Shown here: positions 1-20,529 of the stretch, piece after piece
Numbering within the stretch: the first letter of the stretch is position 1
Layout of the letters: each line of letters starts with the position of its first letter
The notes under the pieces: generated by a model
Told to the model about the DNA's origin: nothing
Databases searched by the model: none
The model's input: the letters and a program-made list of their open reading frames with translations, nothing else
Translations under genes and position numbers: made by a program
DNA from: a virus
IMG/VR virus record: IMGVR_UViG_3300023313_000026
Span: 1-26,387 of that record
Length of the DNA: 26,387 nucleotides
Strand: one strand, 5' to 3'

Positions 1-99
1 AAAGAGCCGAAGCAGTGCGTTGATGTAACCTTCCAAGCTTTTGGTTGTGTAGCAATAATAAGACGCTGTAAAAAGGATTTGCTGGAGATTGTGGAATGA
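1..99 (+). CDS. 3' end of an unidentified upstream phage gene (partial)
   Basis: Frame 1 is open from the first base to a TGA at 97-99 and encodes the last 32 residues of a protein, ending in KKDLLEIVE. The other two forward frames hit stops within about 27 bases. The TGA overlaps the ATG of the next gene (ATGA at 96-99), the same coupling seen throughout this window, which supports a real gene end. The tail contains two cysteines and a basic RRCKKD stretch but no motif that identifies a family. By position it belongs to the gene block before the packaging genes. The function is unknown and the start lies outside the window. Confidence 0.6.
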   Translation, partial: KEPKQCVDVTFQAFGCVAIIRRCKKDLLEIVE

Positions 100-452
100 G
101 AGAGATAAGCGAACATCAAGAGCAAGCGACACTCATGAGATGGGTACATATAAACACAGGCAGGCTTCCACAATTAAAGTGGCTGTTTGCTGTGCCGAAC
201 GGTGGGCAAAGGCACATTGCTACCGCCGTAAAATTGAAACAAGAAGGCGTAAAGCGAGGCGTTCCAGATTTGATGTTTCCAGTTCCTCAAGGAAAGTACG
301 CAGGTTTAGCCATCGAAATGAAGACACGCAAAGGCAGAGTATCACCAGAGCAGCACGAATGGATCGAAGGGCTGCGTAGCAATGGTTGGAAAGCTTTGGT
401 GTGTAGAGGGTGGGAAGATGCATCAAAAGAGCTGGAGAAATATTTAGCTTAA
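96..452 (+). CDS. VRR-NUC domain nuclease
   Basis: This 118-residue protein is a stand-alone VRR-NUC nuclease of the PD-(D/E)XK fold. Visible family signatures, in order, are PNGG (residues 34-37), a basic stretch with KxEGVKRGVPDL ending in the catalytic-type P57-D58, the E74-x-K76 pair in IEMK, and a conserved Q86. The length is typical of phage single-domain members, which are structure-specific or Holliday-junction-type nucleases needing a divalent metal. The ATG at 96 has a GGAG Shine-Dalgarno site at 84-87 and overlaps the stop of the previous gene; a TTG at 89 opens only another, shorter-lived frame. It sits directly before the terminase block, so a role in resolving replicated DNA before packaging is plausible, but that is inference. 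Family assignment is firm; the in vivo substrate is not. Confidence 0.9.
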   Translation: MREISEHQEQATLMRWVHINTGRLPQLKWLFAVPNGGQRHIATAVKLKQEGVKRGVPDLMFPVPQGKYAGLAIEMKTRKGRVSPEQHEWIEGLRSNGWKALVCRGWEDASKELEKYLA

Positions 453-453
453 A

Positions 454-509
454 CACTACATATAGTGCTTATCATCCCATGAAACCACAACATATAGAAA
501 ATAGTGCTT
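454..509 (+). repeat. Dyad and direct repeats upstream of promoter (possible operator)
   Basis: Just after the nuclease stop there is a perfect short dyad, CACTA (454-458), CATA, TAGTG (463-467). The 9-mer ATAGTGCTT occurs at 462-470 and again at 501-509, 39 bp apart. The second copy overlaps the -35 hexamer of the candidate promoter. This arrangement could bind a regulator, but the repeats are short and no regulator is visible in the window. Confidence 0.3.
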
Positions 510-535
510 GACAGTATCGCCGCTAAAACTACTAT
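508..535 (+). promoter_or_regulatory. Candidate sigma70 promoter ahead of the packaging genes
   Basis: A perfect -35 hexamer TTGACA (508-513) is followed, after 16 bp, by TACTAT (530-535), a four-of-six match to TATAAT. Transcription would begin near 541-543. It lies in one of the few non-coding gaps of the window and points toward the terminase, portal and capsid genes. An intrinsic terminator begins only about 25 bp beyond the predicted start site, so basal transcription may produce a very short RNA unless the terminator is bypassed. Confidence 0.5.
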
Positions 536-564
536 TTCCGCAAGATACGAAACGAGCCTACTTT

Positions 565-594
565 AACCCATACTTTAGCGAGTGTGGGTTTTTT
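565..594 (+). terminator. Intrinsic terminator just downstream of the promoter
   Basis: AACCCATAC (565-573) pairs with GTGTGGGTT (582-590), a 9-bp stem with one T.G wobble and an 8-base loop, followed directly by TTTT (591-594). It separates the nuclease gene and candidate promoter from the late genes. The stem contains a GTG (582) in frame with the next gene, but that GTG is buried in the hairpin and has no ribosome-binding site. Confidence 0.7.
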
Positions 595-614
595 GCGTTC
601 TGGAGGGTGAGACA

Positions 615-827
615 TTGCATAAAGTCACAGAGATTAAGATTGAGAAAGCAACAAACGGTTACATTGTCGAAACCACAGTTATCAAAGACGGTAAGAAAGG
701 CGAGCTAGGCTCAAATTTTCCGCAGAAAGAAATAGCATCTGTTGCAATGAACGATAGTCAGGTTATAGCACAAGTAAGAAAGCTACTGAAACAGATGACA
801 GCTGAAGAAGAAGACAGCAAAGAATGA
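615..827 (+). CDS. Small conserved-looking phage protein of unknown function
   Basis: I place the start at TTG 615. It has an excellent Shine-Dalgarno site, GGAGG at 602-606, eight bases upstream, whereas the in-frame GTG at 582 lies inside the terminator stem with no ribosome site. The product is 70 residues, mixed charge and probably cytoplasmic. The N-terminal half looks beta-rich (alternating V/I in the first 25 residues); the C-terminal half is helical and ends in an acidic tail, EEEDSKE. The TGA overlaps the ATG of the small terminase gene (ATGA at 824-827), so the two are probably translationally coupled. I recognise no family. Its place immediately before terS suggests a packaging-associated or single-stranded-DNA-related accessory, but nothing in the sequence demonstrates this. 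Confidence 0.7.
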   Translation: MHKVTEIKIEKATNGYIVETTVIKDGKKGELGSNFPQKEIASVAMNDSQVIAQVRKLLKQMTAEEEDSKE

Positions 828-1303
828 GTAAGCTAACTAAAGCAGGCAAAAAAGTCGGGCGAAAGTCTAAATATACACCTGCTCTAGTAGAAGAGATATG
901 CGAGAGACTATCAAAGGGTGAACCTTTAGCGCGTATATGCAGAGATGAACACATGCCGAGCGTTAGAGCAATGAGCGACTGGCAGAGGAAGGATGAAAGT
1001 ATTTCTGCCGACATCGCGCGAGCCAGATTGATAGGTGAGGACTATATAGCTGATGAATGCTTAGACATAGCAGACAATTCAACCAATGATTATATGGACA
1101 AAATGGGCGCTGATGGTGGTATGGATAAAGCTTTGAACAGTGAGCATATCCAACGATCTAAACTTAGAATTGATACACGGTTGAAGCTGTTGGCTAAATG
1201 GAATCCTAAGAAATGGGGCGACAAAGTAACCAATGAAATGACTGGCTCAAATGGTGCGCCTTTAGAAATGATTATTACAAAACGTGTTGTTTCACCCAAA
1301 TAG
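824..1303 (+). CDS. terS: Terminase small subunit (Sf6 gp1-like)
   Basis: This 159-residue protein is the DNA-recognition subunit of the packaging motor. It closely follows the layout of phage Sf6 gp1. A basic N-terminus ending in GRKSKYTP leads into a helix-turn-helix region (about residues 18-55: EEICERLSKGEPLARIC, then MPSVRAMSDW). Next is a helical oligomerisation region, and then the conserved segment RLKLLAKWNPKKWGDKV (from about residue 119), matching the Sf6 'RMNPRKYGDKVTNEL' region recalled from the family. In that family the subunit forms a ring that binds a pac-type site and hands the DNA to the large subunit. It overlaps the preceding stop by ATGA and is followed by a 65-bp gap before terL. 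Confidence is high for the family. Confidence 0.92.
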   Translation: MSKLTKAGKKVGRKSKYTPALVEEICERLSKGEPLARICRDEHMPSVRAMSDWQRKDESISADIARARLIGEDYIADECLDIADNSTNDYMDKMGADGGMDKALNSEHIQRSKLRIDTRLKLLAKWNPKKWGDKVTNEMTGSNGAPLEMIITKRVVSPK

Positions 1304-1368
1304 CATATTTTCAAGTCATTGATTCATAACGACAAAATGACAATGTTACACTACGGATATATAAGCTT

Positions 1369-2790
1369 ATGAGCGCAGTTGAAATAAACTATGACGAAGC
1401 GATAGCATTTAAGGCACTGGATAAGCCTAAACGATATAAAGTGTTTTTCGGTGGGCGTGGTGGTGCGAAGTCTTGGCAAATTGCTCAAGCGTTGCTGATA
1501 CGCGCCGCATCAGAGCCTACGCGCATTTTATGTACACGAGAGATTCAAGGCTCAATCAAAGAATCAGTGCATAAGTTATTAAGTACCACGATTGATAGAC
1601 TTGGCTTGTCTAGCTTCTTTGATGTTCTGGAAGCAGAGATTAGAGGGAAGAACGGCTCATCAATCATCTTTGAGGGATTAAAGCATAACATTACTAAGAT
1701 CAAGTCAATGGAAGGCATTGATATTGTATGGGCTGAGGAAGCGGAATCAGTCACGGAGACAAGCTGGGATGTGTTGTTGCCCACGATCCGCAAAGCTGGG
1801 TCTGAAATATGGGTATCGTTTAACCCACACGATGAGCTAGACAACACTTATCAACGCTTTGTTGTGCCTCATAAAGATGAGATTGATAAGTACGGCTTCT
1901 TTGAAGACGCGCAGACTTATGTGCGGAAGGTAAACTTTGAAGACAACCCATGGTTTACAGAAGAGCTACAGGCTCAAATGGAAGATTGCAAGCGCACAAA
2001 CTACAGGAAATGGCTGCATATCTGGTGCGGTGAGTGTAATGCTGATTATGCTGATTCTATTATTCAGCCAGAATGGGTTGAGGCAGCGATTGACGCACAC
2101 AAAAAGCTTAACTTTAAGCCTTGCGGTAAGCGCCAAGCAGGATTCGATCCAGCGGATGAAGGCGAGGATGCAAAAGCAGTTGTAACACGTCACGGTGTAT
2201 TGATTAACAAGATCAAGTCATGGAAAGATGGTGATTTGGATGACGCGGTCAGCTACGCACTCAAAATTGTTAAGCAACAGCATTGCAGGCTATTAACTTA
2301 TGATGTGGTTGGTATCGGTGCAGGTGTGAAGCTTGCACTTAAACGGCTTGATACGCCTGAGCTTGTTACAGCGGCTTACACAGGCGCTGGTGTTACTGAT
2401 GGTGAATCACTGTATGAAGATGACTTGAAAAATGAGGATGTGTTCAGAAATGGACGCGCTCAATGGTGGTGGTATTTACGCGACCGCTTCGAGAAGACGT
2501 ATCAAGCAGTTGAAAAGGGCAGATATATCAATCCAGACGACTTGATAAGCCTTGATTCAACACTTGAAGAGCTGCCAAGGCTGAAATCAGAGCTTTGCAA
2601 AGTGCGTAGAAAACGTGGGCAAACAGCATACATTCAAATTGAATCAAAGCAGGATATGAAAAAGCGCGGTGTTCAATCGCCAAACATTGCTGATGCGTTG
2701 GTGATGGCATTCTTTACAGATGCGAAACAGGACAGGCAGCAGTTTGTAACGCGGCGAGCAGTGCAGGTAAGTGAGGGAGGTTGGACTTGA
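1369..2790 (+). CDS. terL: Terminase large subunit, ATPase and nuclease (Sf6 gp2-like)
   Basis: At 473 residues this has the usual length for Sf6-type large terminases, and its motifs appear in the right order. Walker A is GGRGGAKS at residues 28-35. Walker B with the catalytic glutamates is DIVWAEE at 118-124, followed by the coupling-type segment IWVSFNPHDELDNTYQRF. The C-terminal RNase-H-like nuclease has D260 (FDPADEG), D312 (YDVVGIGAG) and D442 (PNIADAL). It powers DNA translocation through the portal and cuts concatemers at the start and end of packaging. The ATG at 1369 is the only plausible start: no ATG, GTG or TTG lies between it and an in-frame TAA at 1327. It lacks a good Shine-Dalgarno site, which is odd for so important a gene. 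Its TGA overlaps the TTG start of the portal gene. Confidence 0.97.
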   Translation: MSAVEINYDEAIAFKALDKPKRYKVFFGGRGGAKSWQIAQALLIRAASEPTRILCTREIQGSIKESVHKLLSTTIDRLGLSSFFDVLEAEIRGKNGSSIIFEGLKHNITKIKSMEGIDIVWAEEAESVTETSWDVLLPTIRKAGSEIWVSFNPHDELDNTYQRFVVPHKDEIDKYGFFEDAQTYVRKVNFEDNPWFTEELQAQMEDCKRTNYRKWLHIWCGECNADYADSIIQPEWVEAAIDAHKKLNFKPCGKRQAGFDPADEGEDAKAVVTRHGVLINKIKSWKDGDLDDAVSYALKIVKQQHCRLLTYDVVGIGAGVKLALKRLDTPELVTAAYTGAGVTDGESLYEDDLKNEDVFRNGRAQWWWYLRDRFEKTYQAVEKGRYINPDDLISLDSTLEELPRLKSELCKVRRKRGQTAYIQIESKQDMKKRGVQSPNIADALVMAFFTDAKQDRQQFVTRRAVQVSEGGWT

Positions 2791-4739
2791 ACAACACATT
2801 ACATTTTCAATCAGAAGCAGACTTGCAAAAGCAGGAAGCAGAACAGGCAAGCGCACAAGTACAAACTTCACTTGCACCGATGCTACTTACTCATATTCAG
2901 AAACGATGGACAGAAGCTCAGGAAGCTAAGAAAGTAATAACGCAACGGCTAACAGATTGCCAAAAACGCAGGGCTAGTGAATACAGCGACACGAAGATTG
3001 CAGCAATCCGCAAAACTGGTGGCTCTGAATCATATCCTGCTATCACTTCATCTAAATGTAGGGGTGCTTCGGCATGGATTCGCGACATCCTCTTGCCAGC
3101 CAATGATAAGAGCTGGGGCATTGCTGCAACACCGCAAGCTTCGGTAAAAGACGGTGCGAAAGAGAATGCGAAGCTTATCGTAATGCAGCAGGCACAATCT
3201 GCAATGATGCAGGGTGAGCAAATCACGCCACAGGACGTTGAGGACGCTGTAGGGCGTGCAGAGGAATCCTTTGTTAAAGAAGCACAGGACAAAGCGGATA
3301 AGGCTATGCTGGGCATGGAAAACGTAATAAGCGACCAGCTGGAAGAGGGTGGTTGGCATAAAGCGATGGAGGAAGTGATTGATGATTTCGTCACTTATCC
3401 GACTTGTTTCATGCGTAAAGGTTTGGTGCGTAATCGTGAGCAGATAAAATGGCAACAAACAGAGACAGGTTGGATTCCAGCTATAGAGAGCGAATCAATC
3501 GAAGAGTGGGAGCGCGTTAGCCCATTCGATATATACCCAGCCGCTTATGCCAAAGATTTAAACAGTGCGCCGTTGATCCAAAAGCACAGATTCTCTTTAA
3601 CCCAGCTATCACAAATGGTTGGTGCTAAAGGGTATGACAGCTTTGCGATCAGGCGTATCATGGACAGGTACGAAAACGGCTTAGATGACGAATCAGCAGA
3701 TGAGGCTGCAAGACGCGTTGCAGAGAAACATGCAACATCATCTATCAACTCAAGCACGATTGATGCTTTAGAGCTATGGGATGATGTGACTGGGAAAATG
3801 CTGATCGACTGGGATAAAGGGCGCGGCATTATCGGCTTTGAAGTTGACCCATACAAAACATATCACGTTACAATCATTTCGATTGCTGATGAGATTATAT
3901 CCGCAGACCTTAACCCTGACCTGCTCGGCAAGAAGCCTTACGGCTATGCAAGCTTTGAGCTGGTGTCGGGTTCAGTCTGGGGGACGGCATTGCCAGAGAT
4001 TATATCTGATCCGCAAGACTTGTGTTGTTCAGCAGCAAGAGCTTTAGAAAACAACTTAGCCATGGCTTCTGCCCCAATGGTCGCGCAAGACATTAACGCA
4101 TTACCAGCAGGTGCAGGACTAACAACAATCAGCCCTTGGAAGAACTTTCAATATGATGGCTCGAAAACAAACGGTCGTGTTCCTATCACTTTCTTTCAGC
4201 CCAACTCAAACGCAAATGAGTTGATTGGTATATTCAACAAGTTTTCAGACTTGGCAGAAGAGTATTCTGGTGTGCCTAAATATGCCTATGGTAATTCTGA
4301 TGTTGGTGGAGCAGGTCGCACCGCATCTGGCTTGTCTATCTTGATGAGCAATGCTTCAAAAGGTATCAAGGCAGCGATTGCACACATTGATTTGGGCATT
4401 ATTCGCTATCTAATCACTATGCAATACCAAGACAACATGCTCAATCATCCAGATGAAAGCATAAAAGGTGATGCTCAAGTATCAGCGCGTGGTTCAACTG
4501 CCTTGCTCTTGAAAGAAGTTCAGCAAATGCGCCGTAATGAGCTGTTACAGACAACAGCAAATCAAATTGATATGCAGATTATTGGTGTCGATGGTCGCGC
4601 TAAATTATTACGCGAAACATTTAAAGCCAATGATATTGATGACGTTGTACCGAGTGAAGAAGACTTGATGAGGATGCAAAATGAAGCAAGCCAGCAAGCG
4701 AACACTGCAAGCCTTGAGCAGCCTACAGGGCAACCATGA
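2787..4739 (+). CDS. Portal protein
   Basis: The product is about 650 residues, in the size range of podovirus (P22/Sf6-class) portals, which form the dodecameric ring through which DNA enters and leaves the head. I choose TTG 2787 because GGGAGG at 2775-2780 lies six bases upstream and the codon overlaps the terL stop (TTGA). An in-frame TTG at 2781 directly abuts the ribosome site, which is too close. Recognisable portal segments include ITSSKCRGASAWIRDILLP near residue 86 and a C-terminal region from about residue 508 (GAGRTASGLS, then ASKGIKAAI) typical of this portal class. The N-terminal 30 residues are glutamine-rich, and the last 30 are Q/N-rich and overlap the next gene. Its place between terL and scaffold is canonical. 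Confidence 0.92.
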   Translation: MNNTLHFQSEADLQKQEAEQASAQVQTSLAPMLLTHIQKRWTEAQEAKKVITQRLTDCQKRRASEYSDTKIAAIRKTGGSESYPAITSSKCRGASAWIRDILLPANDKSWGIAATPQASVKDGAKENAKLIVMQQAQSAMMQGEQITPQDVEDAVGRAEESFVKEAQDKADKAMLGMENVISDQLEEGGWHKAMEEVIDDFVTYPTCFMRKGLVRNREQIKWQQTETGWIPAIESESIEEWERVSPFDIYPAAYAKDLNSAPLIQKHRFSLTQLSQMVGAKGYDSFAIRRIMDRYENGLDDESADEAARRVAEKHATSSINSSTIDALELWDDVTGKMLIDWDKGRGIIGFEVDPYKTYHVTIISIADEIISADLNPDLLGKKPYGYASFELVSGSVWGTALPEIISDPQDLCCSAARALENNLAMASAPMVAQDINALPAGAGLTTISPWKNFQYDGSKTNGRVPITFFQPNSNANELIGIFNKFSDLAEEYSGVPKYAYGNSDVGGAGRTASGLSILMSNASKGIKAAIAHIDLGIIRYLITMQYQDNMLNHPDESIKGDAQVSARGSTALLLKEVQQMRRNELLQTTANQIDMQIIGVDGRAKLLRETFKANDIDDVVPSEEDLMRMQNEASQQANTASLEQPTGQP

Positions 4740-4920
4740 CTTTGAAGTTATTATGGACTGGATCAAGGAAACACGAAACGAATTGATAGAGCGATTGCCA
4801 CACGCTGAGGGAGAGCAGACGGCAAAAGCACAAGGACAGTTACTAGACTTGAACGAGATTATCAACACTGCCAACAAGGCAACTGATATTCTGTATCAAG
4901 CTACACACGGAAACACCTGA
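4681..4920 (+). CDS. Small portal-linked accessory protein
   Basis: A 79-residue helical protein overlaps the portal C-terminus by 59 bases. The ATG at 4681 has a good AGGA site six bases upstream (4671-4674). An internal ATG at 4753 (55 residues) has only a weak GAAG. The segment HDFEVIMDWIKETRNELI, followed by EGEQTAKAQGQ and LLDLNEI, resembles small proteins encoded next to portal genes in other tailed phages, and it extends upstream of the internal ATG, which favours the longer form. I cannot name a function. A role in head assembly or as a portal accessory is inferred from position alone. A strong terminator follows 23 bases after the stop. Confidence 0.7.
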   Translation: MKQASKRTLQALSSLQGNHDFEVIMDWIKETRNELIERLPHAEGEQTAKAQGQLLDLNEIINTANKATDILYQATHGNT

Positions 4921-4942
4921 TTAGGCAGGGCTTCCGAACGCT

Positions 4943-4969
4943 AAGGCATCCATCTGGGTGTCTTTTTTT
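4943..4969 (+). terminator. Intrinsic terminator between portal block and scaffold
   Basis: AAGGCATCC (4943-4951), a four-base ATCT loop and GGGTGTCTT (4956-4964) form a 9-bp stem with two wobble pairs, continued by a T-run to 4969. No obvious promoter follows before the scaffold gene at 5021. Partial termination here could set the dosage of scaffold and capsid relative to portal, or the late polymerase complex may read through. Confidence 0.7.
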
Positions 4970-5020
4970 ATGCCTAAAAAACAAGTGAACACCGTTCTAA
5001 CGGCTCATGGAGATAGAAAA

Positions 5021-5962
5021 ATGGGATTACCAAAGCACATCGAAGAAGAACTAGCACAAGCCGAAGAGGACTTCAAGTCTGCATATCCTGACCAAGTGGT
5101 AACCGACACGCAGGAAGCAGAGCAAGAGCCTATAGAAGCAGAAAAGGAAGACGTAGCGACTATCACGCCTGACGAAGTTGTAGAGCAAGAAACTGCACCA
5201 GCGCAAGACGTAGATAATACCGATACCACCAACCTTTTTGAGCAAAGATATAATGTTTTGAAAGGTAAATATAACAAGGAAGTGCCTTTATTGCAGGAGC
5301 AGGTGCGCAACCTGACTTCTCAAGTAGAAACGCTACAGAATCAGCCAGCGAAAAGAAGTGATGCAGACGAAGCACTTATTTCGAAGGTTAAAGATGAGTT
5401 CGGTGACGAGTTCATTGATGATTTCAAGCAAGACTACAGCAGTGAACAACCAGAGAGCGAAGTTGATGCGCTGAAACAGCGTGTTGAATCAGCAGAACAA
5501 GCCACGAAAGACATTCAGCACGAGAGTGCAATGGCAGAGCTTGACCGAACCATGCCTAAATGGCGTGAGCAGGACAGTGACCCATTGTTTCAAGAGTGGC
5601 TGGGTGGTTTGGATGAGTTCTCAGGTGTTGTGCGCAATGAATTGTTAATAAAATCCTTTAAAAATAGAGATCTAGCGCGTGTGAAACTTATTTTTGATGC
5701 GTACAACGTAACCCCGACACAATCACAGCAACCACAAGCAGTCCAGCCAGTAGAAACCCAGCCACAACAACAAAAACGATTGATGCCCTCCGCTTCGCAA
5801 GGAACGGAACAAGCAGAAACAGGCAAGCTATATAGCCAAGCCGATATTGATGCGTTTTATGCCGATGTGAGACAAGGTAGATACAGGAACAGGGCAGCAG
5901 ACGGTGAAAGGATTGAAAGGGATATTTTCGCAGCACAAAACGAAGGGCGAATTACAGCCTAA
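5021..5962 (+). CDS. Capsid scaffold protein
   Basis: A 313-residue, strongly acidic and glutamine-rich protein lies directly before the major capsid gene, the standard place for a scaffold. It would guide assembly of the coat shell and then leave. Residues 1-70 are an acidic low-complexity stretch. The segment at about 77-105 (RYNVLKGKYNKEVPLL, then a heptad-like coiled coil) is a pattern I know from podoviral scaffolds. The C-terminus (residues about 270-313: DIDAFYADVRQGRYR, ending EGRITA) matches the conserved coat-binding tail of that class. I start at ATG 5021, which has GGAG at 5009-5012. The GTG at 4958 and ATG at 4970 lie within or at the edge of the terminator and lack ribosome sites. 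Confidence 0.82.
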   Translation: MGLPKHIEEELAQAEEDFKSAYPDQVVTDTQEAEQEPIEAEKEDVATITPDEVVEQETAPAQDVDNTDTTNLFEQRYNVLKGKYNKEVPLLQEQVRNLTSQVETLQNQPAKRSDADEALISKVKDEFGDEFIDDFKQDYSSEQPESEVDALKQRVESAEQATKDIQHESAMAELDRTMPKWREQDSDPLFQEWLGGLDEFSGVVRNELLIKSFKNRDLARVKLIFDAYNVTPTQSQQPQAVQPVETQPQQQKRLMPSASQGTEQAETGKLYSQADIDAFYADVRQGRYRNRAADGERIERDIFAAQNEGRITA

Positions 5963-6021
5963 CCGCTGATTTACCGCGTTTAACTACGGAAAACCCTAAT
6001 CATCTTTAGGAGATTTCCATC

Positions 6022-6948
6022 ATGGCAATTCCAGTAGCTAACCCAAACTGGGACGGTGTACCACAATTACAGCGTTCTGGAACAGTAACACCTAACCAAT
6101 TATGGTCAAAAAAGCTCATTGCAGCTTTTTATAATAATACAGTCTTTGGCGCGATTGCTTCAACAGACTATGAAGGCGATATTAAAGCGTTTGGCGATTT
6201 GGTAACAATTCGTACTACGCCTGACATCGCAATCAGCAACTACACCAAAGGCGCACCATTGGTTTATGAGCAACCAGTCGTGCCAACGGTTGATTTGTTG
6301 ATTGACCAAGCAAAAAGCTTTGCGATTCAAGTTGATGATGTTGATAAATACCAAGCTGATTATGATTTCGTATCAGACTGGACAAATTCAGCAGCAGCAA
6401 ACATGAAGGTCAACATTGATACTGATGTGATTGCTTACGTTGCAGCAAATGTTGCAGCGACCAACCAAGGCGCAACAGCAGGTGTTGTATCAACAAGCTT
6501 CAATCTTGGTACTGCACTAGCTCCAGTGACTATCACGCCAGCAAACATCATCGACATTATTGTTGATATGGGTTCTGTGCTTGATGAATCAAATTGCCCT
6601 GAGAATGGTCGTTGGTTGGTTATGCCTTCATGGGCTGTAGGCATGATTAAAAAGTCTGCAATTCGTGATGCTTCATTGTCTGGCGGTGACACTTCGCTAT
6701 ATCGCAATGGTCGCGTTGGCATGGTTGATCGCTTTGAGATCTATGCTTCAAACAGCATCGTCCCAGCAGGTCTTAACTTCGACTTGATTGCAGGGCACAA
6801 GCAAGGTCTTACGTTTGCAAGTCAACTGACTAAAAACGAAAGCTTGCCTAATCCTAACAGCTTCGGTTCTTTGATCCGTGGCTTGCAGGTTTATGGTCGC
6901 CAAGTAGTTAAAGGTGACATTTTGGCACGCGCACAAGTTATCCGTTAA
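6022..6948 (+). CDS. Major capsid protein
   Basis: This 308-residue protein follows scaffold and has a strong ribosome site (TTTAGGAG) nine bases before ATG 6022. It carries hallmarks of a podoviral/siphoviral coat family of HK97 fold. These are an N-terminal segment with NTVFGAIASTDYEGDIKAFGD, a central VDLLIDQAKSFAIQVDDVD region, and a C-terminal block from about residue 193 (PENGRWLVMPSWAV, GGDTSLYRNGRVGMVDRFEIY). It would assemble into the icosahedral shell. Translation is probably strong, and a terminator follows directly, which suits a highly expressed gene. No truncation or frameshift is seen. Confidence 0.92.
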   Translation: MAIPVANPNWDGVPQLQRSGTVTPNQLWSKKLIAAFYNNTVFGAIASTDYEGDIKAFGDLVTIRTTPDIAISNYTKGAPLVYEQPVVPTVDLLIDQAKSFAIQVDDVDKYQADYDFVSDWTNSAAANMKVNIDTDVIAYVAANVAATNQGATAGVVSTSFNLGTALAPVTITPANIIDIIVDMGSVLDESNCPENGRWLVMPSWAVGMIKKSAIRDASLSGGDTSLYRNGRVGMVDRFEIYASNSIVPAGLNFDLIAGHKQGLTFASQLTKNESLPNPNSFGSLIRGLQVYGRQVVKGDILARAQVIR

Positions 6949-6968
6949 ACGATAACAACCAAATGGAG

Positions 6969-6995
6969 GGGGTGGCTTAGGCTGCCCCTTTTTTT
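6969..6995 (+). terminator. Intrinsic terminator after the capsid gene
   Basis: GGGGTGGC (6969-6976), a four-base TTAG loop and GCTGCCCC (6981-6988) form an 8-bp GC-rich stem with two wobble pairs, followed by seven T (6989-6995). It is the strongest-looking terminator in the window and probably limits expression of downstream head-completion genes relative to the coat. Confidence 0.85.
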
Positions 6996-7012
6996 ATTCA
7001 AGGAGTAAAGAA

Positions 7013-7318
7013 ATGAAAGAACAAAAGTATTTACGCAACACCGACAGCGGTATCATCGAGCTATACTCTGAACCCAAAGCAGCACTATCAAACATGGAAG
7101 AAGTAAGTAAAAAAGAAGCTTTAGCCGCAAGCAAAGCTAAGCCTAAAAAAGCAGCTTCGAATGATTCGCGCACAAATGAAATCAAAGCAGCAATCGACAA
7201 GCTAGACAAAGACGACCCTGACGCATTCACGGCATCTGGTAAGCCGCAAGTTGTCGCTATCGAAGCCATTTTAGGCTTTGACATTACAGCAGAAGAACGC
7301 GACAGCGCGATCGTATAA
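7013..7318 (+). CDS. Small capsid-adjacent protein (head completion or decoration?)
   Basis: A 101-residue protein with an AAGGAG ribosome site at 7000-7005 follows the capsid terminator. The first 30 residues look beta-structured (KYLRNTDSGIIELYSE) and are followed by a lysine/alanine-rich linker (residues about 38-58, with KKEALAASKAKPKKAAS). The C-terminal module is a compact helix-rich unit resembling small SAP-like or LEM-like folds (PDAFTASGKPQVVAIEAILGFDITAEERD). Proteins with this layout commonly follow coat genes in podoviruses, so a head-completion, decoration or DNA-binding role is reasonable but inferred. The family is not firmly named. Confidence 0.65.
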   Translation: MKEQKYLRNTDSGIIELYSEPKAALSNMEEVSKKEALAASKAKPKKAASNDSRTNEIKAAIDKLDKDDPDAFTASGKPQVVAIEAILGFDITAEERDSAIV

Positions 7319-7343
7319 CCAATAAAGGAAACGAGGTTACATA

Positions 7344-8036
7344 ATGGGTACATTGACAGCAGATGCGATCATTCTGAAAGCTCGGCGCATTTTTCAAGAC
7401 GATACAGGCGTTAGATGGCAAGATGCGGAAGAGCTGGACTGGCTAAATGACGGGCAACGTGAAATCGTCTTGATTCGCCCTGATGCAAATGTTGTTAATG
7501 CTACCGTTTTGTTATCCGTAGGCACAAAGCAGACGATACCTGCGGCAGGCGTTACGCTGATTGACGTGGTACGCAATATGGTAGGAGCAGGGCAGGCAAC
7601 AGCTGGTAAAGTGGTAAGGCTTGTTGATAGGGAAGTCTTGGATGCAACTAACCCCGACTGGCATAGCCAAGCAGCAAGTGCGAATGGCGAAGTTGACCAT
7701 TACGTTTTTGATAAACGCGACCCTAAAACATTCTATGTTTATCCACAGCCACCTGCTACACCCAACGGCATTGAGCTTGTTTATTCGGCAGCCCCAGATG
7801 TTGTAGCTTTCGTCAATGACACCATAAAAATTGATGATATTTATGCCAACGCATTGCTTGATTACATGCTTTATCGGTCGTATTCAAAAGATGCGGACTA
7901 TTCGGGCAATGTGAATCGTGCAGCCGCACATTTCCAAGCCTTCTTGCAAAGTTTAGGCATGAAGGCGCAAACGGATGCAGTTAATGATCCTAATAATGTA
8001 GCTGTGCCTAACCGTAACACTGTAGCTGGTCGCTAG
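7344..8036 (+). CDS. Adaptor (DUF6682-like) head-tail connector protein
   Basis: A 230-residue protein with a ribosome site (AGGAAACGAGG) just upstream. It resembles the phage adaptor family DUF6682. The N-terminal helix pair (MGTLTADAIILKARRIFQD, then WLNDGQREIVLIRPD) is followed by the conserved KQTIPAAGVTLIDVVRNM. Next come LVDREVLDATNPDWH and the HYVFDKRDPKTFYVYPQPP block with its beta-strand character. A helical C-terminus (ANALLDYMLYRSYSKDADY) completes the family pattern. Such proteins form a ring under the portal that joins head and tail. The next gene begins two bases after its stop and seems to be a partner connector. Confidence 0.82.
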   Translation: MGTLTADAIILKARRIFQDDTGVRWQDAEELDWLNDGQREIVLIRPDANVVNATVLLSVGTKQTIPAAGVTLIDVVRNMVGAGQATAGKVVRLVDREVLDATNPDWHSQAASANGEVDHYVFDKRDPKTFYVYPQPPATPNGIELVYSAAPDVVAFVNDTIKIDDIYANALLDYMLYRSYSKDADYSGNVNRAAAHFQAFLQSLGMKAQTDAVNDPNNVAVPNRNTVAGR

Positions 8037-8038
8037 TC

Positions 8039-8674
8039 ATGGGGTTATTTAGTGATTTACTGTCAGAGGTGCTGCCAGATGTTCCAGATTGCCTTAACAT
8101 CGTTATGGAAAAGGCGATCAGGGACGCTGCGATCAAGTTTTGCGAAGAGACACATATATGGGAAGTGGATTTACCCACCATTTCACTGCTTGCAGACACC
8201 GCAGAATATGCGCTCGCTCCACCAACTAACCAGCAAATCATCAAACTAACCCAAGTGATTATGAACGGCAGAATGATAGAGCCTACAAGTATCGTCAACC
8301 TTGATTCACGCAGCACGACATGGCGCGCACTGATAGGCACACAACCTACAAACTGGCTGATGGTGAACCCTGTAACATTAAGGGCTTATCCAATACCAAG
8401 TGTAGATGGTGCAATTACTGCAAAAGCTATTGTGAAACCATCGAGAACAGCGACAGGTATAGATGACTTTATCAGCAACGATTATTACTTAGCTATTGCA
8501 GCAGGAGCAAAGGCTTTGCTTTGTGCCATGCCGCATAAGGCGTGGACTGCATTAGAGCTGGTATCGTATTATCAAAGCATTTTCAATGAAGGCGTGAACC
8601 GTGCGAAATTGTATAAAAACAGCGGCTTTGCAAGCGCAGATCTTCCGAATCAAACACAGTATTTAGGGGCATAA
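8039..8674 (+). CDS. Second head-tail connector / gp4-like adaptor (probable)
   Basis: This 211-residue protein follows the DUF6682-like gene after two bases, with no clear Shine-Dalgarno site, so it is likely translated by coupling. It has the overall plan of connector-type proteins. An N-terminal helical segment (EKAIRDAAIKFCEETHIWEVDLPTI, residues about 22-46) leads to a beta-rich middle (NWLMVNPVTLRAYPIP). A C-terminal helical bundle follows (YYLAIAAGAKALLCAMPHKAW, YYQSIFNEGVNRAKL). Position after the adaptor and before the fibre gene supports a role in tail attachment. The exact family is uncertain and the name rests on architecture and context. Confidence 0.65.
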   Translation: MGLFSDLLSEVLPDVPDCLNIVMEKAIRDAAIKFCEETHIWEVDLPTISLLADTAEYALAPPTNQQIIKLTQVIMNGRMIEPTSIVNLDSRSTTWRALIGTQPTNWLMVNPVTLRAYPIPSVDGAITAKAIVKPSRTATGIDDFISNDYYLAIAAGAKALLCAMPHKAWTALELVSYYQSIFNEGVNRAKLYKNSGFASADLPNQTQYLGA

Positions 8675-8675
8675 C

Positions 8676-10799
8676 ATGGCATTTCAAACTAAGGCTGCAT
8701 GGTATAATCAAGGCACTGTAGCCACAGACGGAACAGCTAACATTGTCGGCACTTCAACCAATTTTACAGATATTGGCGATGTTAAAGTTGGTGATCTATT
8801 CTCACTGAACGGTGCTGACATTTATCAAATCATTTCAGTCGGGGACGGCACAACCAACGGTGACAGTACAGCAGGCACAGCAGCAGGCACAGCAGCAGGA
8901 AACAATACGCTGCTCACGCTAGACAGAAGCATTGCGACAGGCACATCCCAGTCTTATGTGGTGCTTAAACTATCATCCGTCAACCCTATCAATTCAGATA
9001 TTGCCTATCGTGTATCGCAAATGGTGCAGGCATGGCAACAGCGCGAAGATGAGCTGATCGCATGGCTTGCAGGAACATCAAGCGGCGGAAATCTTGCCAA
9101 TGGTGAATATCCTCTTACTGATGCAATAGGCAACACTTCACAAGTCAAAAGCCCAGCCAAGATGCAGAGCGAAGCAGATGCCGTTATAGCAACCGTTGCA
9201 GGCGCTGGCATGGATGGTGTCATGGCTGCCAACACTAACACTGGCGGCACTGGCAATATCCCAGCAGGCAAATCCTTCACACTTAACAACGCAGCAGGAA
9301 CGCGAACCTTATTGAATATTGACGAACAACGCGGACTTGCTGGCATGGTAGGCAACATCAATAGCCCACTTACACACCTAGTTTTCAGTGGGTTAGAATT
9401 ACCGCCGTTTGCTAGTGCGCAGTGTAGTATTGCAGCACCTGCCGCAATAGCTGTTGCCGCACCTGTATTCGGTTTAAGTGAAATGTTTTTGACCTTTGCA
9501 TCCATTCCAGCAGGTGTAGTTGCTGAAAAATGCTTCGCTACTATCAACGGCGTAGATTACCCAATCAGAGCGTTAAGTGGGGACGGCGTTAGCATCTACA
9601 TTGAATACGATGACACCTTAACCGACCCAACAGGAACGCCAGCAGTCATCTTCTCGCTATGGCGATTCCGTGGTAAATATGCAGGCAATCACAATTACGC
9701 AAGAGCTAGCCGCAAAACATACACCGACCCCTTAACAGGCAACCTACGCATGGAGCCAGCAGGCTATCCATGCTTTGAGCGCATGGCTGATGGTAAGATT
9801 GGTGTTTCGTTGGAGGGTGCTGGTAACAATTTAGCGTTTAATAGCGAAACTATCGGGGCGGTAGCAACCTGCTCAACCGCCCTAAATACAACAATCGACA
9901 CACCTTATGGTTTTAGCGGCAGTCTTATATCTACAGTAAACACGGGTTCCGGTAGGTATGGCGCGGTGAAATTAATCACAGGACTGACTATAGGAGTAAC
10001 ATACACTGCATCCATTATTGCTGCTCATCAAGTAGGTTTTGATAGGTTGTCTTTGTTCCGTGACTTGGCGCCTTTTACGGGTAGTACTTCGAGTTACACG
10101 TTTTCAACAGATACCATCGTAGGTAGTGAACTTCGAGTAACACATCGTTTCAATGATGGCAGCGTTAGATTAGAAATGACATTTGTTTCTGTGGCTGCCA
10201 ATGAAAATATCGCGTTAGTTGCATTTAATACCAGTGTGAACGATTACACACCTACAGGTGTTGAAACTATGATTGTAGAAGCAATACAAGTTGAAGCCCT
10301 GCCATTCGCATCATCATACATCCCAACAGCAGGAGCGGCTGTGAATCGGGCGGCGGATGATTTGAGTATTTCGGCAAAAGGAAATCTAAACTCTAGCGCG
10401 TTCACATGCCTAGGAGACTTTGCACCCAAAGGTAATGGTCAATACTTCTTTGATATGGATGTTAACACTAGTGGTGCAGGTAGGGTTGCTATATTAACAA
10501 ACAATAACAGTATTAACTTTTTTAATCTTGAAAATTATTACCCACCGATTAACCCTTACAGCACAGGGTACGCGCTACATCGTGTGGGGTTCAAAACTGA
10601 CTTCGTACAAGATATAGCCTTTTTTGACGGTGCAGTGGTTTTGTCTCACGCATCATCTTCCGCGCTCAACCTCGTTCATGAGGCGACCGATCTATTCTTG
10701 GGTCGCCGATACTCAAATAGTCAGTATATGTACGGGCATATCGGCTTCTTCGATATTTACGATTCATTACTAACAGACCAAGAAATGGGGGCTGCATAA
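8676..10799 (+). CDS. Large tail fibre or spike protein with carbohydrate-binding-like modules
   Basis: A 707-residue protein. Residues about 1-105 form an N-terminal domain seen in many phage fibres (TVATDGTANIVGTSTNFTDI, VKVGDLFSLNG), probably the virion anchor, followed by a helical AWQQREDELIAWLAG segment. A middle region precedes a module at about 384-563 with a 'NNLAFNSET ... QVEALPFASSYIPTAG ... NRAADDLS' frame, characteristic of CBM4-like domains in phage fibres. The last 140 residues look like a LamG/concanavalin-like beta-sandwich (DLFLGRRYSN ... GHIGFFDIYDS). It probably recognises surface sugars. It follows the connector genes with a TAA then ATG at 8676 and an AGGGG ribosome site. 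No enzymatic motif is evident. Confidence 0.78.
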   Translation: MAFQTKAAWYNQGTVATDGTANIVGTSTNFTDIGDVKVGDLFSLNGADIYQIISVGDGTTNGDSTAGTAAGTAAGNNTLLTLDRSIATGTSQSYVVLKLSSVNPINSDIAYRVSQMVQAWQQREDELIAWLAGTSSGGNLANGEYPLTDAIGNTSQVKSPAKMQSEADAVIATVAGAGMDGVMAANTNTGGTGNIPAGKSFTLNNAAGTRTLLNIDEQRGLAGMVGNINSPLTHLVFSGLELPPFASAQCSIAAPAAIAVAAPVFGLSEMFLTFASIPAGVVAEKCFATINGVDYPIRALSGDGVSIYIEYDDTLTDPTGTPAVIFSLWRFRGKYAGNHNYARASRKTYTDPLTGNLRMEPAGYPCFERMADGKIGVSLEGAGNNLAFNSETIGAVATCSTALNTTIDTPYGFSGSLISTVNTGSGRYGAVKLITGLTIGVTYTASIIAAHQVGFDRLSLFRDLAPFTGSTSSYTFSTDTIVGSELRVTHRFNDGSVRLEMTFVSVAANENIALVAFNTSVNDYTPTGVETMIVEAIQVEALPFASSYIPTAGAAVNRAADDLSISAKGNLNSSAFTCLGDFAPKGNGQYFFDMDVNTSGAGRVAILTNNNSINFFNLENYYPPINPYSTGYALHRVGFKTDFVQDIAFFDGAVVLSHASSSALNLVHEATDLFLGRRYSNSQYMYGHIGFFDIYDSLLTDQEMGAA
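8872..8899 (+). repeat. 12-bp direct repeat inside the fibre gene
   Basis: CAGGCACAGCAG occurs twice in tandem (8872-8883 and 8884-8895), followed by a partial CAGG. It encodes an AGT-rich loop in the N-terminal fibre domain. It is an in-frame codon-level repeat that could vary in copy number without frameshift; copy number is too low to say more. Confidence 0.6.
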
Positions 10800-11206
10800 T
10801 GTACACAGACTTAATCACATACACCAAAGATAGCCTAGTTTTTCTCGCAGAAGTTGAGCAAGCGTTTCCTGACAAGATTATCCGCGATGAGGAAACACAA
10901 GCAGCGATCGGTGTGCAAATCACCAAAACACCAACGGTGCGCAACGTCAACACAGCAACGAATGAAACGGTTGCTGTAGTTCGTGCTACAGATGCTGAAA
11001 TGTTCGATATTCGCACGTTGTCATCGTTGAATATTCTCTTGGAAGTGCCGTATGGCGAAAGCCTTGAAGCAGCTATGCCTTCAATGACGGCTGCTAACCG
11101 CAAGCTGTACGATGCTGTTCACGACCAAGCGCCTTATGACGTAACCCTCGAAGATGGCACGGTGCAAACCATTACGCCAAACGCGTACATTGGCGGCTTC
11201 CTGTGA
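10799..11206 (+). CDS. Fibre-linked small protein of unknown function
   Basis: A 135-residue protein whose ATG overlaps the stop of the fibre gene (TAATG at 10797-10801), indicating tight coupling with it. The N-terminal part (YTDLITYTKDSLVFLAEVEQAFPD) is helical; the middle has beta-like VQITKTPTVRNV and ETVAVVRATDAEMFDI; the C-terminus ends with TPNAYIGGFL. Genes of this sort next to fibres in other phages are annotated as fibre-associated or assembly proteins, but I do not recognise a defined family here. A chaperone or fibre-subunit role is inferred only from position and coupling. Confidence 0.65.
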   Translation: MYTDLITYTKDSLVFLAEVEQAFPDKIIRDEETQAAIGVQITKTPTVRNVNTATNETVAVVRATDAEMFDIRTLSSLNILLEVPYGESLEAAMPSMTAANRKLYDAVHDQAPYDVTLEDGTVQTITPNAYIGGFL

Positions 11207-11448
11207 ATATCAACAAGATGATGGCTAATGTCATGCCTTTGGATAAGCAGTTGCACATGCTATGGCTGTTTATGGCTACGTCTTGCTTGCTTGTCTTTGT
11301 TCCTATGCTTATTGCCTGCGTCATCGGTTTGAGTGTTGCGATTGTGAAAGAGTTTTTTGATAACAACAACACAGCAATGGAGCATGTTAAAGACGTGATT
11401 ACAGGTGCATTGGGCGTTGGGCTTGCTGCACTGGTTTCTGTGCTGTGA
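11203..11448 (+). CDS. Small inner-membrane phage protein
   Basis: An 81-residue protein starting at GTG 11203, which overlaps the previous stop (GTGA); an ATG at 11218 is an alternative start. It carries a DKQLH motif (residues 14-18), then a long hydrophobic segment (about 18-48), a KEFFD motif (49-53), and a second hydrophobic helix (about 64-81). The DK-LH / KE-D pattern flanking membrane helices resembles small phage membrane proteins loosely related to VanZ- or YfiM-like families, though I cannot confirm this. It could be a holin-like or envelope-modifying accessory. It lies well away from the main lysis genes, and the true holin is downstream. Confidence 0.65.
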   Translation: MNINKMMANVMPLDKQLHMLWLFMATSCLLVFVPMLIACVIGLSVAIVKEFFDNNNTAMEHVKDVITGALGVGLAALVSVL

Positions 11449-11792
11449 TTCTCACAGTGACCCATATTCCGCCAGCCCACTGGTGGCAGCGTGCGCAATG
11501 GTGCTTGCGCCATGATTTACCCGTTGTTGGCATCACTGTGCCTGCTGGTTTTGTTACGGATGCAATCAGCACCCCATGGTTTATGTTTTGGCTTGTCTCG
11601 CCAACGGGCAGGGGCTTCCCCGCTGCTGTGTTGCATGATTACATGCTTTCATTGTTACCTGATGGTGAAAGCAGGCTCGATGCGGATGAGTTGTTCCAAG
11701 ATGCCTTAGTGGCTTGCGCTGTTTCGCCGTGGCGAGCAAAGGGCATGTTTTACGCTGTACGCGCTTACGCATTTTTCAAAGGGGCTTTCTGA
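11445..11792 (+). CDS. DUF1353 family phage protein
   Basis: This 115-residue protein begins at GTG 11445, overlapping the previous stop (GTGA). It shows the DUF1353 hallmarks: the VPAGFVTDAIS motif at residues 32-42, then FPAAVLHDYM at 58-67, and a C-terminal helical segment with LDADELFQDALV at 78-89. DUF1353 proteins are widespread in tailed phages and have no settled function; the HD pair in LHDY hints at metal or catalytic chemistry, which is only an inference. It overlaps the next gene by TGATG, so the run is one transcription unit. Length is usual for the family. Confidence 0.88.
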   Translation: MILTVTHIPPAHWWQRAQWCLRHDLPVVGITVPAGFVTDAISTPWFMFWLVSPTGRGFPAAVLHDYMLSLLPDGESRLDADELFQDALVACAVSPWRAKGMFYAVRAYAFFKGAF

Positions 11793-12487
11793 TGGCAGTT
11801 GATCCCGTTGTCTGGGCAAATGACATGCGGGCGGCTATCGCACAGATGGCAGGGGCAATGCGCGTGATTGCTACTGCGGAGACGCAGCCAGAATGGAAAT
11901 CTTATTTTGATGCGTGGCGCAAAGACCCTTCGCTTTCTAAGTCCACTCGCAAAACAATCAAGTCTTTGATGCCTGCTGTGTTAGCTATTTCTGATGATTT
12001 GGATGACCCGTTGCTTACTGAGATCGGCATTGATGTTTTAGCATTGCCTGTGCCTGTGAGTTTTTCTGGGCAAAATCTTCCCTCCCCCAAAGATTTAAAG
12101 ATTGCCCAAGTTGACATGCACGAAAGCCCCTCTGAAACAGCACATGAAATCTTGGTGCTTACGCATCCTACGCGCATCTGCACGTTGACCATCAAGCAAG
12201 TGTCAGACGGTGTTGCGGTGGATGCCCCCGTGACCATGACAGAAGTAACCGCTGGCGTGTTTACCCACACTATTGATTGGAGCGTCTTAGCCGTAGCAGT
12301 GGGCTACTACATCATAGAAGTGACCGATGAGCATGAGCTTGATGCTGCTCTCATCGAATTGAAAGAACCACCAACAGAATCACACACCCAAGCTGATAAA
12401 GTCTGGATGTTGCAAAACGTCACAGGCGGCACTGGTGGCGGTGGTGGTAGCTATCCATCTGCGAAAGCGGACGGAAGCTTTATTTAA
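11792..12487 (+). CDS. Phage structural-type protein with Ig-like motif and Gly-rich tail
   Basis: A 231-residue protein starting at ATG 11792 (TGATG overlap; the in-frame extension upstream lies inside DUF1353). Residues 1-75 are helical, with a WKSYFDAWRKDPSL segment. The remainder looks beta-rich, with a G-V-F-x-H ... VGYYIIEV pair (nt 12250-12326) that recurs in three following proteins. The C-terminus has a GGTGGGGGS run and ends ADGSFI, like a flexible linker or exposed tail. No family is recognised. The helix-plus-beta layout suggests a small structural subunit attached to the tail or fibre complex. Confidence 0.6.
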   Translation: MAVDPVVWANDMRAAIAQMAGAMRVIATAETQPEWKSYFDAWRKDPSLSKSTRKTIKSLMPAVLAISDDLDDPLLTEIGIDVLALPVPVSFSGQNLPSPKDLKIAQVDMHESPSETAHEILVLTHPTRICTLTIKQVSDGVAVDAPVTMTEVTAGVFTHTIDWSVLAVAVGYYIIEVTDEHELDAALIELKEPPTESHTQADKVWMLQNVTGGTGGGGGSYPSAKADGSFI

Positions 12488-12507
12488 TCTTATCAAAGGA
12501 GATAAGA
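12488..12507 (+). promoter_or_regulatory. Hairpin presenting a Shine-Dalgarno site in its loop
   Basis: TCTTATC (12488-12494) and GATAAGA (12501-12507) form a perfect 7-bp stem around the loop AAAGGA. The Shine-Dalgarno AGGAG (12497-12501) is thus in the loop and first stem base, two bases before ATG 12509 resumes after the stem. Such a structure could promote or tune translation of the next gene. Confidence 0.5.
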
Positions 12508-12508
12508 C

Positions 12509-12913
12509 ATGGCTTTAACAGCATTTCAAAACAAGTCTGCGGACTTAGTTTATGACACAGAAGGAACGCAAAGCGGTGTGACTGACTTGCGGTTTGACAT
12601 TTATGACCCAGCAGGCGCACACGATCCTCTTGTGGATTTCGTAACTGCTACAGAAGTCGGCAACAGCGGTGTCTATAAAGCATCATTCACGCCTACTTTG
12701 GTTGGTACTTACGTTGTGCTTGCATCATCTGCGTTGTCTTCACCTTTGATCGACAACAAAGCTGGTACTGTGACTGTTCGCGCTCACGATGAAAACGCCA
12801 TCGCTGGTGCTGGATTCGTTTCTGCAACGGATTCACTTGAAGCAATGAGCAATCAACTTGTGACCATTGCCGCGTCACAGGGCGCACCATCTGCTCGCGG
12901 ACGCGTGATTTAA
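12509..12913 (+). CDS. Small beta-sandwich-like phage protein
   Basis: A 134-residue protein preceded by AAAGGAG within a hairpin loop. It looks like an Ig-like fold: strands around DLRFDIYDPAG, then SGVYKASFTPTLVGTYVVLASSAL (within nt 12661-12726), a pattern seen in bacterial Ig-like adhesin and phage decoration domains. The C-terminus is helical (ATDSLEAMSNQLVTIAAS). It is the second of four neighbouring proteins sharing this GV(Y/F) ... G(x)(Y/W) strand pair. Role unknown; a surface or fibre-associated decoration is the simplest reading. Confidence 0.6.
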   Translation: MALTAFQNKSADLVYDTEGTQSGVTDLRFDIYDPAGAHDPLVDFVTATEVGNSGVYKASFTPTLVGTYVVLASSALSSPLIDNKAGTVTVRAHDENAIAGAGFVSATDSLEAMSNQLVTIAASQGAPSARGRVI

Positions 12914-12941
12914 TCATGCTTAGCGGTGTTAGGTACTCCCT

Positions 12942-13349
12942 ATGATTAAGACAATTCGTTATATGGACGTGCCTAACATCGTGCTTGCTTGCGAGGTTTA
13001 CGACAGCTCCGACACCCTTCTTTCTAGCACTATCATGGCTGAGACAGGCATTGTGGGCGTGTATCGACACGATATTGATGTTTCTGCATTGGTTGGTGAT
13101 GTCTGGGTGCTTATCCGTGATTCGCAAGGCGCTGTTCGTGAAATGGTCAAGATTGCACCAAGTATTGATAGCTTGAAAGTCGATATTGATTTCTTACGCG
13201 CCATCGAAGGTGGGCGCTGGCAGATTGTTGGTCAGCAAATGGTATTCTTTGCTGAGAACAACACGACAGAAGTTGCAAGGTTCGACTTCAAAGATGATGC
13301 AGGGCTATTGACCAATCCTGAGACTGCGTTTGAACGGACGCGCGTATGA
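12942..13349 (+). CDS. Small beta-sandwich-like phage protein
   Basis: A 135-residue protein starting at ATG 12942, with only a weak upstream AGG. The N-terminal half has beta-like strands, including GVYRHDIDVSALVGDVWVLI (nt 13051-13115), which matches the strand-pair motif of its neighbours. A helical stretch (SIDSLKVDIDFLRAIEGG) and a second short beta-rich unit (WQIVGQQMVFFAENNTTEVARFDF) follow. The final segment reads like a 'coefficient/fallback' domain seen in phage proteins that carry a trailing strand, but I know no family name. It overlaps the next gene by ATGA, so expression is coupled. Confidence 0.6.
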   Translation: MIKTIRYMDVPNIVLACEVYDSSDTLLSSTIMAETGIVGVYRHDIDVSALVGDVWVLIRDSQGAVREMVKIAPSIDSLKVDIDFLRAIEGGRWQIVGQQMVFFAENNTTEVARFDFKDDAGLLTNPETAFERTRV

Positions 13350-13816
13350 ATTACATGCTGTTTAGAGGCTTGCTTGGCTTCATTATCACGAGAGGATATG
13401 GCTCTGTTCGCCCTCTGCGTGAGGCGTTTATTGCTGTCTCTTACCTTGCCCTGCAATACCGTGCCGATGTTCCCATGAGCATGGCTTGGCAGGCTAAGCT
13501 AACATTGCAACGCGCTTGGGCTGAGAACGTCATTATTTACGAATTACCTAATTTTATTACCAAAGCTTTTATCGTGCTTCGCCGCGTGTATCAATTAGCC
13601 ATCAAGAAAGATAGCTCTTTTGTTTCAACGTCTTATATCAAAATGGGTATGCGTAGCAAGGTTTCCATCAAACAAAAATCAGGGTACAATGCAAGGGCGG
13701 CTCTCTTGCAGCAATTTGCAGGCGATGCCGTGTTGGTGCAGGCATTTCAATCGCGTGTTGGCTTGCAACAAAAAAGCGTACATGCAGCAATTTTAGAGGT
13801 GAGTTATGGCAGGTAA
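13346..13816 (+). CDS. Basic phage protein of unknown function
   Basis: A 156-residue, lysine- and arginine-rich protein. It starts at ATG 13346, overlapping the previous stop (ATGA), and its end overlaps the next start by 11 bases. It is largely helical: a hydrophobic N-terminal 35 residues (FRGLLGFIITRGYGSV) is followed by helices with SMAWQAKLTLQRAWAENV and KAFIVLRRVYQLAIKK. The net positive charge could reflect nucleic-acid or membrane-surface contact. I recognise no domain. It sits amid the beta-sandwich cassette and differs from those neighbours in fold type. Confidence 0.6.
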   Translation: MNYMLFRGLLGFIITRGYGSVRPLREAFIAVSYLALQYRADVPMSMAWQAKLTLQRAWAENVIIYELPNFITKAFIVLRRVYQLAIKKDSSFVSTSYIKMGMRSKVSIKQKSGYNARAALLQQFAGDAVLVQAFQSRVGLQQKSVHAAILEVSYGR

Positions 13817-14114
13817 AATTTATGTTGGCGATATTGGTACAGCTTTTCGCTTGATTATGACCGACCCCGACACCAACCAGCCCATTGATATTTCAACGGC
13901 ATCCAGCCTCAATATCAGCGTGAAAAAACCCAATGGCACGATTGAAAATTGGGTGGCGCAGAATGGCGCAAACATTGGCGAAGTGGAGCATATTGCGATT
14001 GCAGGAGACTTGGATATTGCTGGCAACTATCAGCTTCAAGCTATCGTTGCGCTCCCCTCGTGGAGTGGGCGTTCTGAAACAGCTGCAACTACAATATATC
14101 AGCCTTTCAAATAA
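13806..14114 (+). CDS. Small beta-domain protein resembling a baseplate/fibre N-terminal domain
   Basis: A 102-residue protein with the signature IGTAFRLIMTDPDTNQPIDI and LNISVKKPNGTI, followed by EHIAIAGDLDIAGNYQLQAI (within nt 13978-14050). This arrangement is common in small phage structural proteins and resembles the BppU-type N-terminal baseplate domain. It carries the same G ... AG(N)Y strand pair as three upstream proteins. It starts inside the last codons of the preceding gene (11-base overlap), with GAGG near 13796. A role in a tail or fibre complex is plausible but unproved. Confidence 0.65.
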   Translation: MAGKIYVGDIGTAFRLIMTDPDTNQPIDISTASSLNISVKKPNGTIENWVAQNGANIGEVEHIAIAGDLDIAGNYQLQAIVALPSWSGRSETAATTIYQPFK

Positions 14115-15081: not shown

Positions 15082-15147
15082 TCGTTTGGGCTGAAATGCG
15101 CTTCCCTCCAATTAATTTATGGAATACACCAAAACAGGAGATTCAAT

Positions 15148-15858: not shown

Positions 15859-15909
15859 TCTTAAACTGGCAATACAGCATTAAGCAATAAATCATTTAGG
15901 GGTTAAGCC

Positions 15910-20503: not shown

Positions 20504-20529
20504 GTGCCTAAAATCCGTGAGGTAAGACC

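Follow-up and report, generated by a model that had tools for sequence, protein, structure and literature searches.

A promoter-terminator pair at the head of a podovirus-like late operon: a probable control point resembling the lambda late switch

Known late switches and the locus under study

In phage lambda (NC_001416) the late promoter pR' lies after the nin region, an intrinsic terminator, tR', precedes the first late gene, no other late-operon promoter is evident, and the switch is opened by the antiterminator Q. Known Q families are alike in position and function, and not in sequence or structure (PMC7171158). A podophage example is Pseudomonas phage vB_PaeP_YA3, in which NinB, a nuclease (NinG) and Q are followed by a late promoter with a rho-independent terminator 224 nt downstream, a predicted pR'-tR' pair (PMC7326022).

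The window, by which we mean the whole 26.4-kb virus record analysed here with the contig start as position 1, carries podovirus-like late genes, all on the + strand, in the order small ORF, terminase small and large subunits, SU10-like portal, scaffold-position gene, capsid, tail and lysis. Nothing precedes them other than the end of a small ORF and a VRR-NUC gene, and a promoter and a terminator are both accommodated inside the 162-nt gap (453–614) that separates the VRR-NUC gene from the first late gene. The relevant features are as follows.

1–99, + strand: small ORF, C-terminal 32 codons, penultimate gene of the early/nin-like region (frame reading)
96–452, + strand: VRR-NUC nuclease gene, last before the control region (PF08774, E 1.5e-13)
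451–470, no strand assigned: imperfect dyad AAACACTA-CATA-TAGTGCTT (sequence reading)
508–535, + strand: predicted late promoter of sigma70 type, TTGACA, 16 nt, TACTAT, expected start ~542
565–594, + strand: promoter-proximal intrinsic terminator, AACCCATACTT-TAGC-GAGTGTGGGTT followed by T6, 11 pairs, −13.9 kcal/mol, z = −5.9
615–827, + strand: first late gene, small ORF with TTG start, 70 aa, motif NGYI, conserved as the first gene of the late operon
824–1303, + strand: terminase small subunit, Sf6-type (PF20901, E 7e-36)
1369–2790, + strand: terminase large subunit (PF04466, E 1.6e-50)
4943–4969, + strand: internal terminator 5' of the scaffold-position gene
6965–6995, + strand: internal terminator directly 3' of the major capsid gene, −18.6 kcal/mol
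20473–20504, + strand: internal terminator farther along the late operon

The likeness to lambda extends to a consensus-type promoter after the nin region, an intrinsic terminator before the first late gene and the lack of any other evident late-operon promoter, no promoter matching at least 9/12 positions being found between the terminator and the small terminase gene of the window. The lambda promoter, TTGACT-17-TAAATT, is a poorer consensus match than that of the window. Unlike lambda, with its leader of 194 nt and its lysis genes first, the window has a leader of ~50 nt and begins with packaging genes; no Q of a known family was found in it, the promoter follows VRR-NUC without an intervening gene, and the pause-like hexamer is weak. 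YA3 shares the order of NinB, nuclease and late promoter with terminator, and differs in having a recognisable Phage_antitermQ protein and in placing its lysis genes first (PMC7326022).

Promoter and terminator

The elements proposed in a sequence-only reading of this DNA were borne out. Its −35 (TTGACA, 508–513) and near-consensus −10 (TACTAT, 530–535) stand 16 nt apart and match 10 of 12 consensus positions, its terminator at 565–594 is the stem listed above, and the short RNA of ~50 nt that it had claimed would follow in length from these elements, given a start near 542. Taken alone, a promoter match of this quality is ordinary: positions 1–20000 of the window hold 29 promoter-like sites, fewer than the 34.5 expected from shuffles, four of them at 10/12, and such a promoter is present in 3.6% of shuffles of the 162-nt gap. 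The score of the terminator is reached by 0.025% of gap shuffles, and the pair by none of 20,000 shuffles of the window gap or of 10,000 shuffles of the corresponding gap in L012, a related phage described below. The strict terminator scan is conservative, since it missed the lambda control, where tR' has a long loop.

The right half of the dyad, TAGTGCTT, is repeated at 502–509, where it overlaps the −35 of the late promoter. Dyad and half-site together form a possible regulator site or operator, insignificant alone, and could have arisen by chance.

Conservation of the arrangement

Five phages were compared (the window, L277, L278, L297 and L343), namely those whose record includes the same late-operon start. 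A perfect TTGACA is common to all five, and in four of them (all except L343) the order of TTGACA promoter, terminator and the same small first gene is kept. The 269 non-redundant related loci, amounting to 4.70 M strand-bases, contain only four distinct strict pairs, and three of these represent this site, lying 2214, 2220 and 2177 nt 5' of the portal start in three diverged phages; the fourth phage with the pair, L297, has a weaker −10.

The nearest terminase relative is represented by contigs 3300002242_000889 and 3300002242_000811 (L012, L094 and L277, identical at the site), with TTGACA-17-TATAAA, a terminator 45 nt on, and then a homologous small ORF and the small and large terminase genes. 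A capsid-based search yielded L278 (3300013233_000039), with TTGACA-17-TATGGT, a terminator 28 nt on and a second in tandem, followed by the same small ORF and then a different small terminase; 5' of its promoter lie a weak NinB match, a 66-aa ORF and a VRR-NUC gene, both homologous to those of the window (58% and 54% identity, respectively), and a 176-aa orphan. Two further phages came from a portal-based search. In L297, TTGACA-17-TAGCAA is followed after 57 nt by a terminator and then by the same small ORF; in L343, TTGACA-17-TACGGT stands directly 5' of the small ORF and the terminator is absent. Homologs of the first late gene of the window are thus found in L012 and L278, and are also read in L343 and L297. 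In L343 the stretch at 2209–2260 comprises this promoter and, 3' of it, a near-palindrome, CGGTGCGCGCCG, which lies over the expected start and is possibly a repressor site replacing the terminator.

Between the promoter hexamers and the terminators no recognisable sequence relation was detected across these phages, so that the conserved thing is the arrangement. The terminator stems are strong (−11 to −19 kcal/mol). With regard to a Q-binding element at the promoter, a TTCG after the −10 is a weak signal, occurring in three of four sites, and 1.5% of shuffles share as much. Annotated phages include no close DNA relative of the window, the scan with the small first ORF confirmed no further relatives, and genome collections contain no close prophage relative, the best having ~50% TerL identity; in most TerL relatives the genes are ordered differently and the pair is absent. 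Several TerS relatives (L198, L211, L217, L220 and L227) were considered as carriers of the pair and rejected, their 'promoters' falling inside the end of a coding gene.

A proposed lambda-like late switch and its upstream context

The promoter-terminator pair is probably a real control point of the late genes. Its best explanation, and one that we hold to be somewhat on the likely side, is a switch like lambda pR'-tR', opened by an antiterminator and standing at the head of the late operon. From the elements, their conservation and their order, all of them observed, we infer transcription from the site, the efficiency of its termination, a factor and the processivity of its action. Host RNA polymerase would initiate at the 508–535 promoter and, if unmodified, stop at 565–594 after ~50 nt, and the same terminator would halt early transcription coming through VRR-NUC. 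Towards the end of the early phase a phage factor would be made that modifies the polymerase at or near the promoter, and the modified enzyme would ignore the terminators at 565–594, 4943, 6965 and 20473, allowing the late genes to be expressed. The site would in this way act as the single control point of the late operon.

The earlier proposal of either antitermination or an attenuator finds support in its first part, which gains from the order of promoter, terminator and late operon in four diverged phages, 3' of a nin-like region (NinB, VRR-NUC), an order that reproduces the lambda pR'-tR' layout exactly, although no gene of the three known Q families was found in related records. Its second part loses ground: the leader of the window has no antiterminator hairpin, no leader peptide and no start codon in the stretch from 542 to the stem, and folds into the terminator and a 4-pair closing helix only, and this absence of antiterminator RNA structure and leader peptide argues against a classical attenuator.

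The genes upstream resemble those that precede the lambda switch. The site lies directly after a nin-like region, of which the window shows the VRR-NUC gene and the small-ORF end, and L012 and L278 show co-directional NinB, with nin-like genes running rightward into the site in both. The upstream region of the L012 phage has a lambdoid layout, in which leftward genes give way to rightward ones, among them Rha/KilAC and one for a NinB-like protein, and finally to a 194-aa orphan that adjoins the promoter on its 5' side; in these 13 kb the terminator after the promoter is the only strong one on either strand. The position of lambda Q is accordingly occupied by the 194-aa orphan in L012 and by the 176-aa orphan in L278. 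Comparison with hhalign detected no relation between the two, neither resembles known families, and phage records contain no homologs of either. Structure prediction for the 194-aa protein was of no use because it is without homologs (pLDDT 38, model unusable).

Nor was any match to the Q families PF03589, PF06530 and PF06323 obtained in related records or in the window from position 1 onward, the region 5' of it lying outside the contig; for PF06323 the control also matched nowhere. This is no disproof, since the known Q families are unlike one another in both sequence and structure (PMC7171158). The window leaves just 55 nt, and no gene, between VRR-NUC and the −35, and Q is therefore not at its usual place; on the lambda-like explanation the antiterminator would have to sit upstream of the contig. 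A −10-like hexamer that could produce the sigma-dependent, promoter-proximal pause on which the loading of Q relies matches at 5/6 positions in L277 and L278 and at 3/6 in the window, against a background of 5%.

A different predicted late control at the same junction

Another relative, L250/G004, has in common with the window the small ORF (65 aa there, with an identical end) and the VRR-NUC gene (92% identity), followed without a gap by a 133-aa gene that matches phrog_836, 'late transcriptional activator' (E 3.5e-12), and then by an unrelated terminase. No promoter-terminator pair was found at this junction. The presence of a predicted activator gene here, in place of promoter and terminator, implies that late control is decided at this point, and the joining of the early genes of the window to another late control implies that the promoter-terminator pair travels with the late module. 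The same junction, then, can apparently carry another kind of late control. The predicted phrog_836 activator, which we take to be Mor/C-like, stands where the window has its promoter-terminator pair, next to the shared VRR-NUC gene; it would be expected to activate initiation, and L250 has no promoter-terminator gap and another terminase.

Combining these observations, a more specific picture can be drawn tentatively, in which promoter-proximal antitermination is exerted by new, mutually unrelated proteins, those of the L278 and L012 orphans in the place of Q, the control cassette is exchangeable (switch or activator), and the terminators are gained or lost together; taken as a whole we find it rather doubtful.

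Positions 1–4000 of L250 (IMGVR_UViG_3300013233_000191) contain small ORFs separated by ~60-nt integron attC-type repeats (GCCTAACGGC...GTTAGGC), and are a gene-cassette array in the early region of a phage, just 5' of its NinB-like and VRR-NUC genes. Clusters of attC sites in phages have been reported before (PMC9892861).

Alternative explanations and the internal terminators

The pair might instead work as an insulator, in which a leaky terminator would block early rightward transcription, the promoter being regulated at initiation by a repressor or an activator and the leak sufficing for late expression with no antiterminator. Co-directional upstream genes go with a terminator in the window, L012 and L278, and divergent ones with its absence in L343, and both the operator-like dyad at 451–470, with its half-site over the −35, and the activator-type gene of L250 at this place would suit such regulation. 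However, an insulator would be expected 5' of the promoter, and the order is promoter then terminator in four of four phages; moreover, L278 has two tandem terminators 3' of its promoter, and the stems, as given above, are strong. We regard this explanation as unlikely, though of some weight.

A second alternative takes the promoter-proximal and internal terminators together as setting relative transcript levels, with no switch. The internal terminators claimed by the sequence-only reading at 4943, 6969 and 20473 are real, intergenic and on the + strand. Together with that at 565 they are the only strong terminators in the window (the capsid one starting at 6965), whose minus strand has none of comparable energy. 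The position before the scaffold gene is kept in the window, L276, L277, L278, L279 and L297, and that after the capsid gene in the window, L276, L277, L278 and L279, the stems themselves differing between phages; considered jointly, the two recur in five of five terminator-bearing relatives with data. Strong terminators 3' of the portal in relatives (373 kb) number 27 on the + strand vs 2 on the − strand. In phage T7 the terminator Tphi after the capsid gene is a level-setting device, and that at 6965 of the window, right after the major capsid gene, resembles it, although T7 has its own RNA polymerase and no such promoter-proximal terminator. Against level-setting as the whole explanation, a terminator 25–60 nt past the promoter can favour no gene, and L343 lacks the promoter-proximal, pre-scaffold and post-capsid terminators all together. 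We consider it improbable.

The behaviour of L343 bears equally on the lambda-like switch, since a single antiterminator acting on every terminator of the operon would lead one to expect that they come and go as a set. L343 provides only one such contrast, however, and among wider portal relatives upstream and internal terminators show no significant association (p = 0.17). The earlier claim that the internal terminators need bypass is thus upheld in part: they are conserved, and absent together in L343, but those of the capsid region may simply tune expression, like Tphi, and therefore do not alone demand antitermination.

Around the pre-scaffold terminator two further features were noted. 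GTG 4958, a possible start of the gene after 4943, falls within the terminator, and comparison with relatives places the start probably at ATG 5021. Between terminator and gene (4962–5022) lies a ~55-nt block (CTTTTTTTATGCCTGAAnAACAGTGAACACCGnnnnAACGGCTCACGGAGAT) that is near-invariant across phages with portals only 39–57% identical, and that holds, just 5' of the Shine-Dalgarno sequence, a hairpin, GUGA-ANA-CCG/CGG-C-UCAC, whose asymmetric internal loop is fixed. A model of the block built from five phages found two more matches, in L297 (E 1.7e-9) and L343 (E 3.8e-5), and the block may be a candidate translational operator of the scaffold gene. In the L012 phage (L277) a 210-aa ORF (6765–7397) separates the scaffold-position gene from that of the capsid, and is possibly an inserted gene, the capsid match there beginning only at residue 53.

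RNA-based processive antitermination of the HK022 put type, in which leader hairpins would modify the polymerase, draws on the additional hairpin between promoter and terminator in L278, L297 and L277, but a hairpin of this kind is absent from the window and no structure is common to the leaders, and we think it very unlikely. That the pair is the gene for a short regulatory RNA of ~50 nt, as a transcript framed by promoter and terminator might suggest, is likewise very unlikely, since a conserved trans-acting RNA should keep its sequence and the transcripts of the four phages are not alignable beyond the promoter elements and match no Rfam family.

Significance

If the lambda-like switch is the correct explanation, a mode of late control known from enteric phages would extend to a group of podovirus-like phages that are uncultivated and represented solely in metagenomes. 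It is visible from sequence alone that the promoter-terminator pair persists although its own sequence turns over. The two orphan genes in the Q position (176 aa in L278 and 194 aa in L012) provide concrete candidate antiterminators, and the junction shared with L250 suggests that late control of the antitermination type and of the activator type can replace each other in nature.
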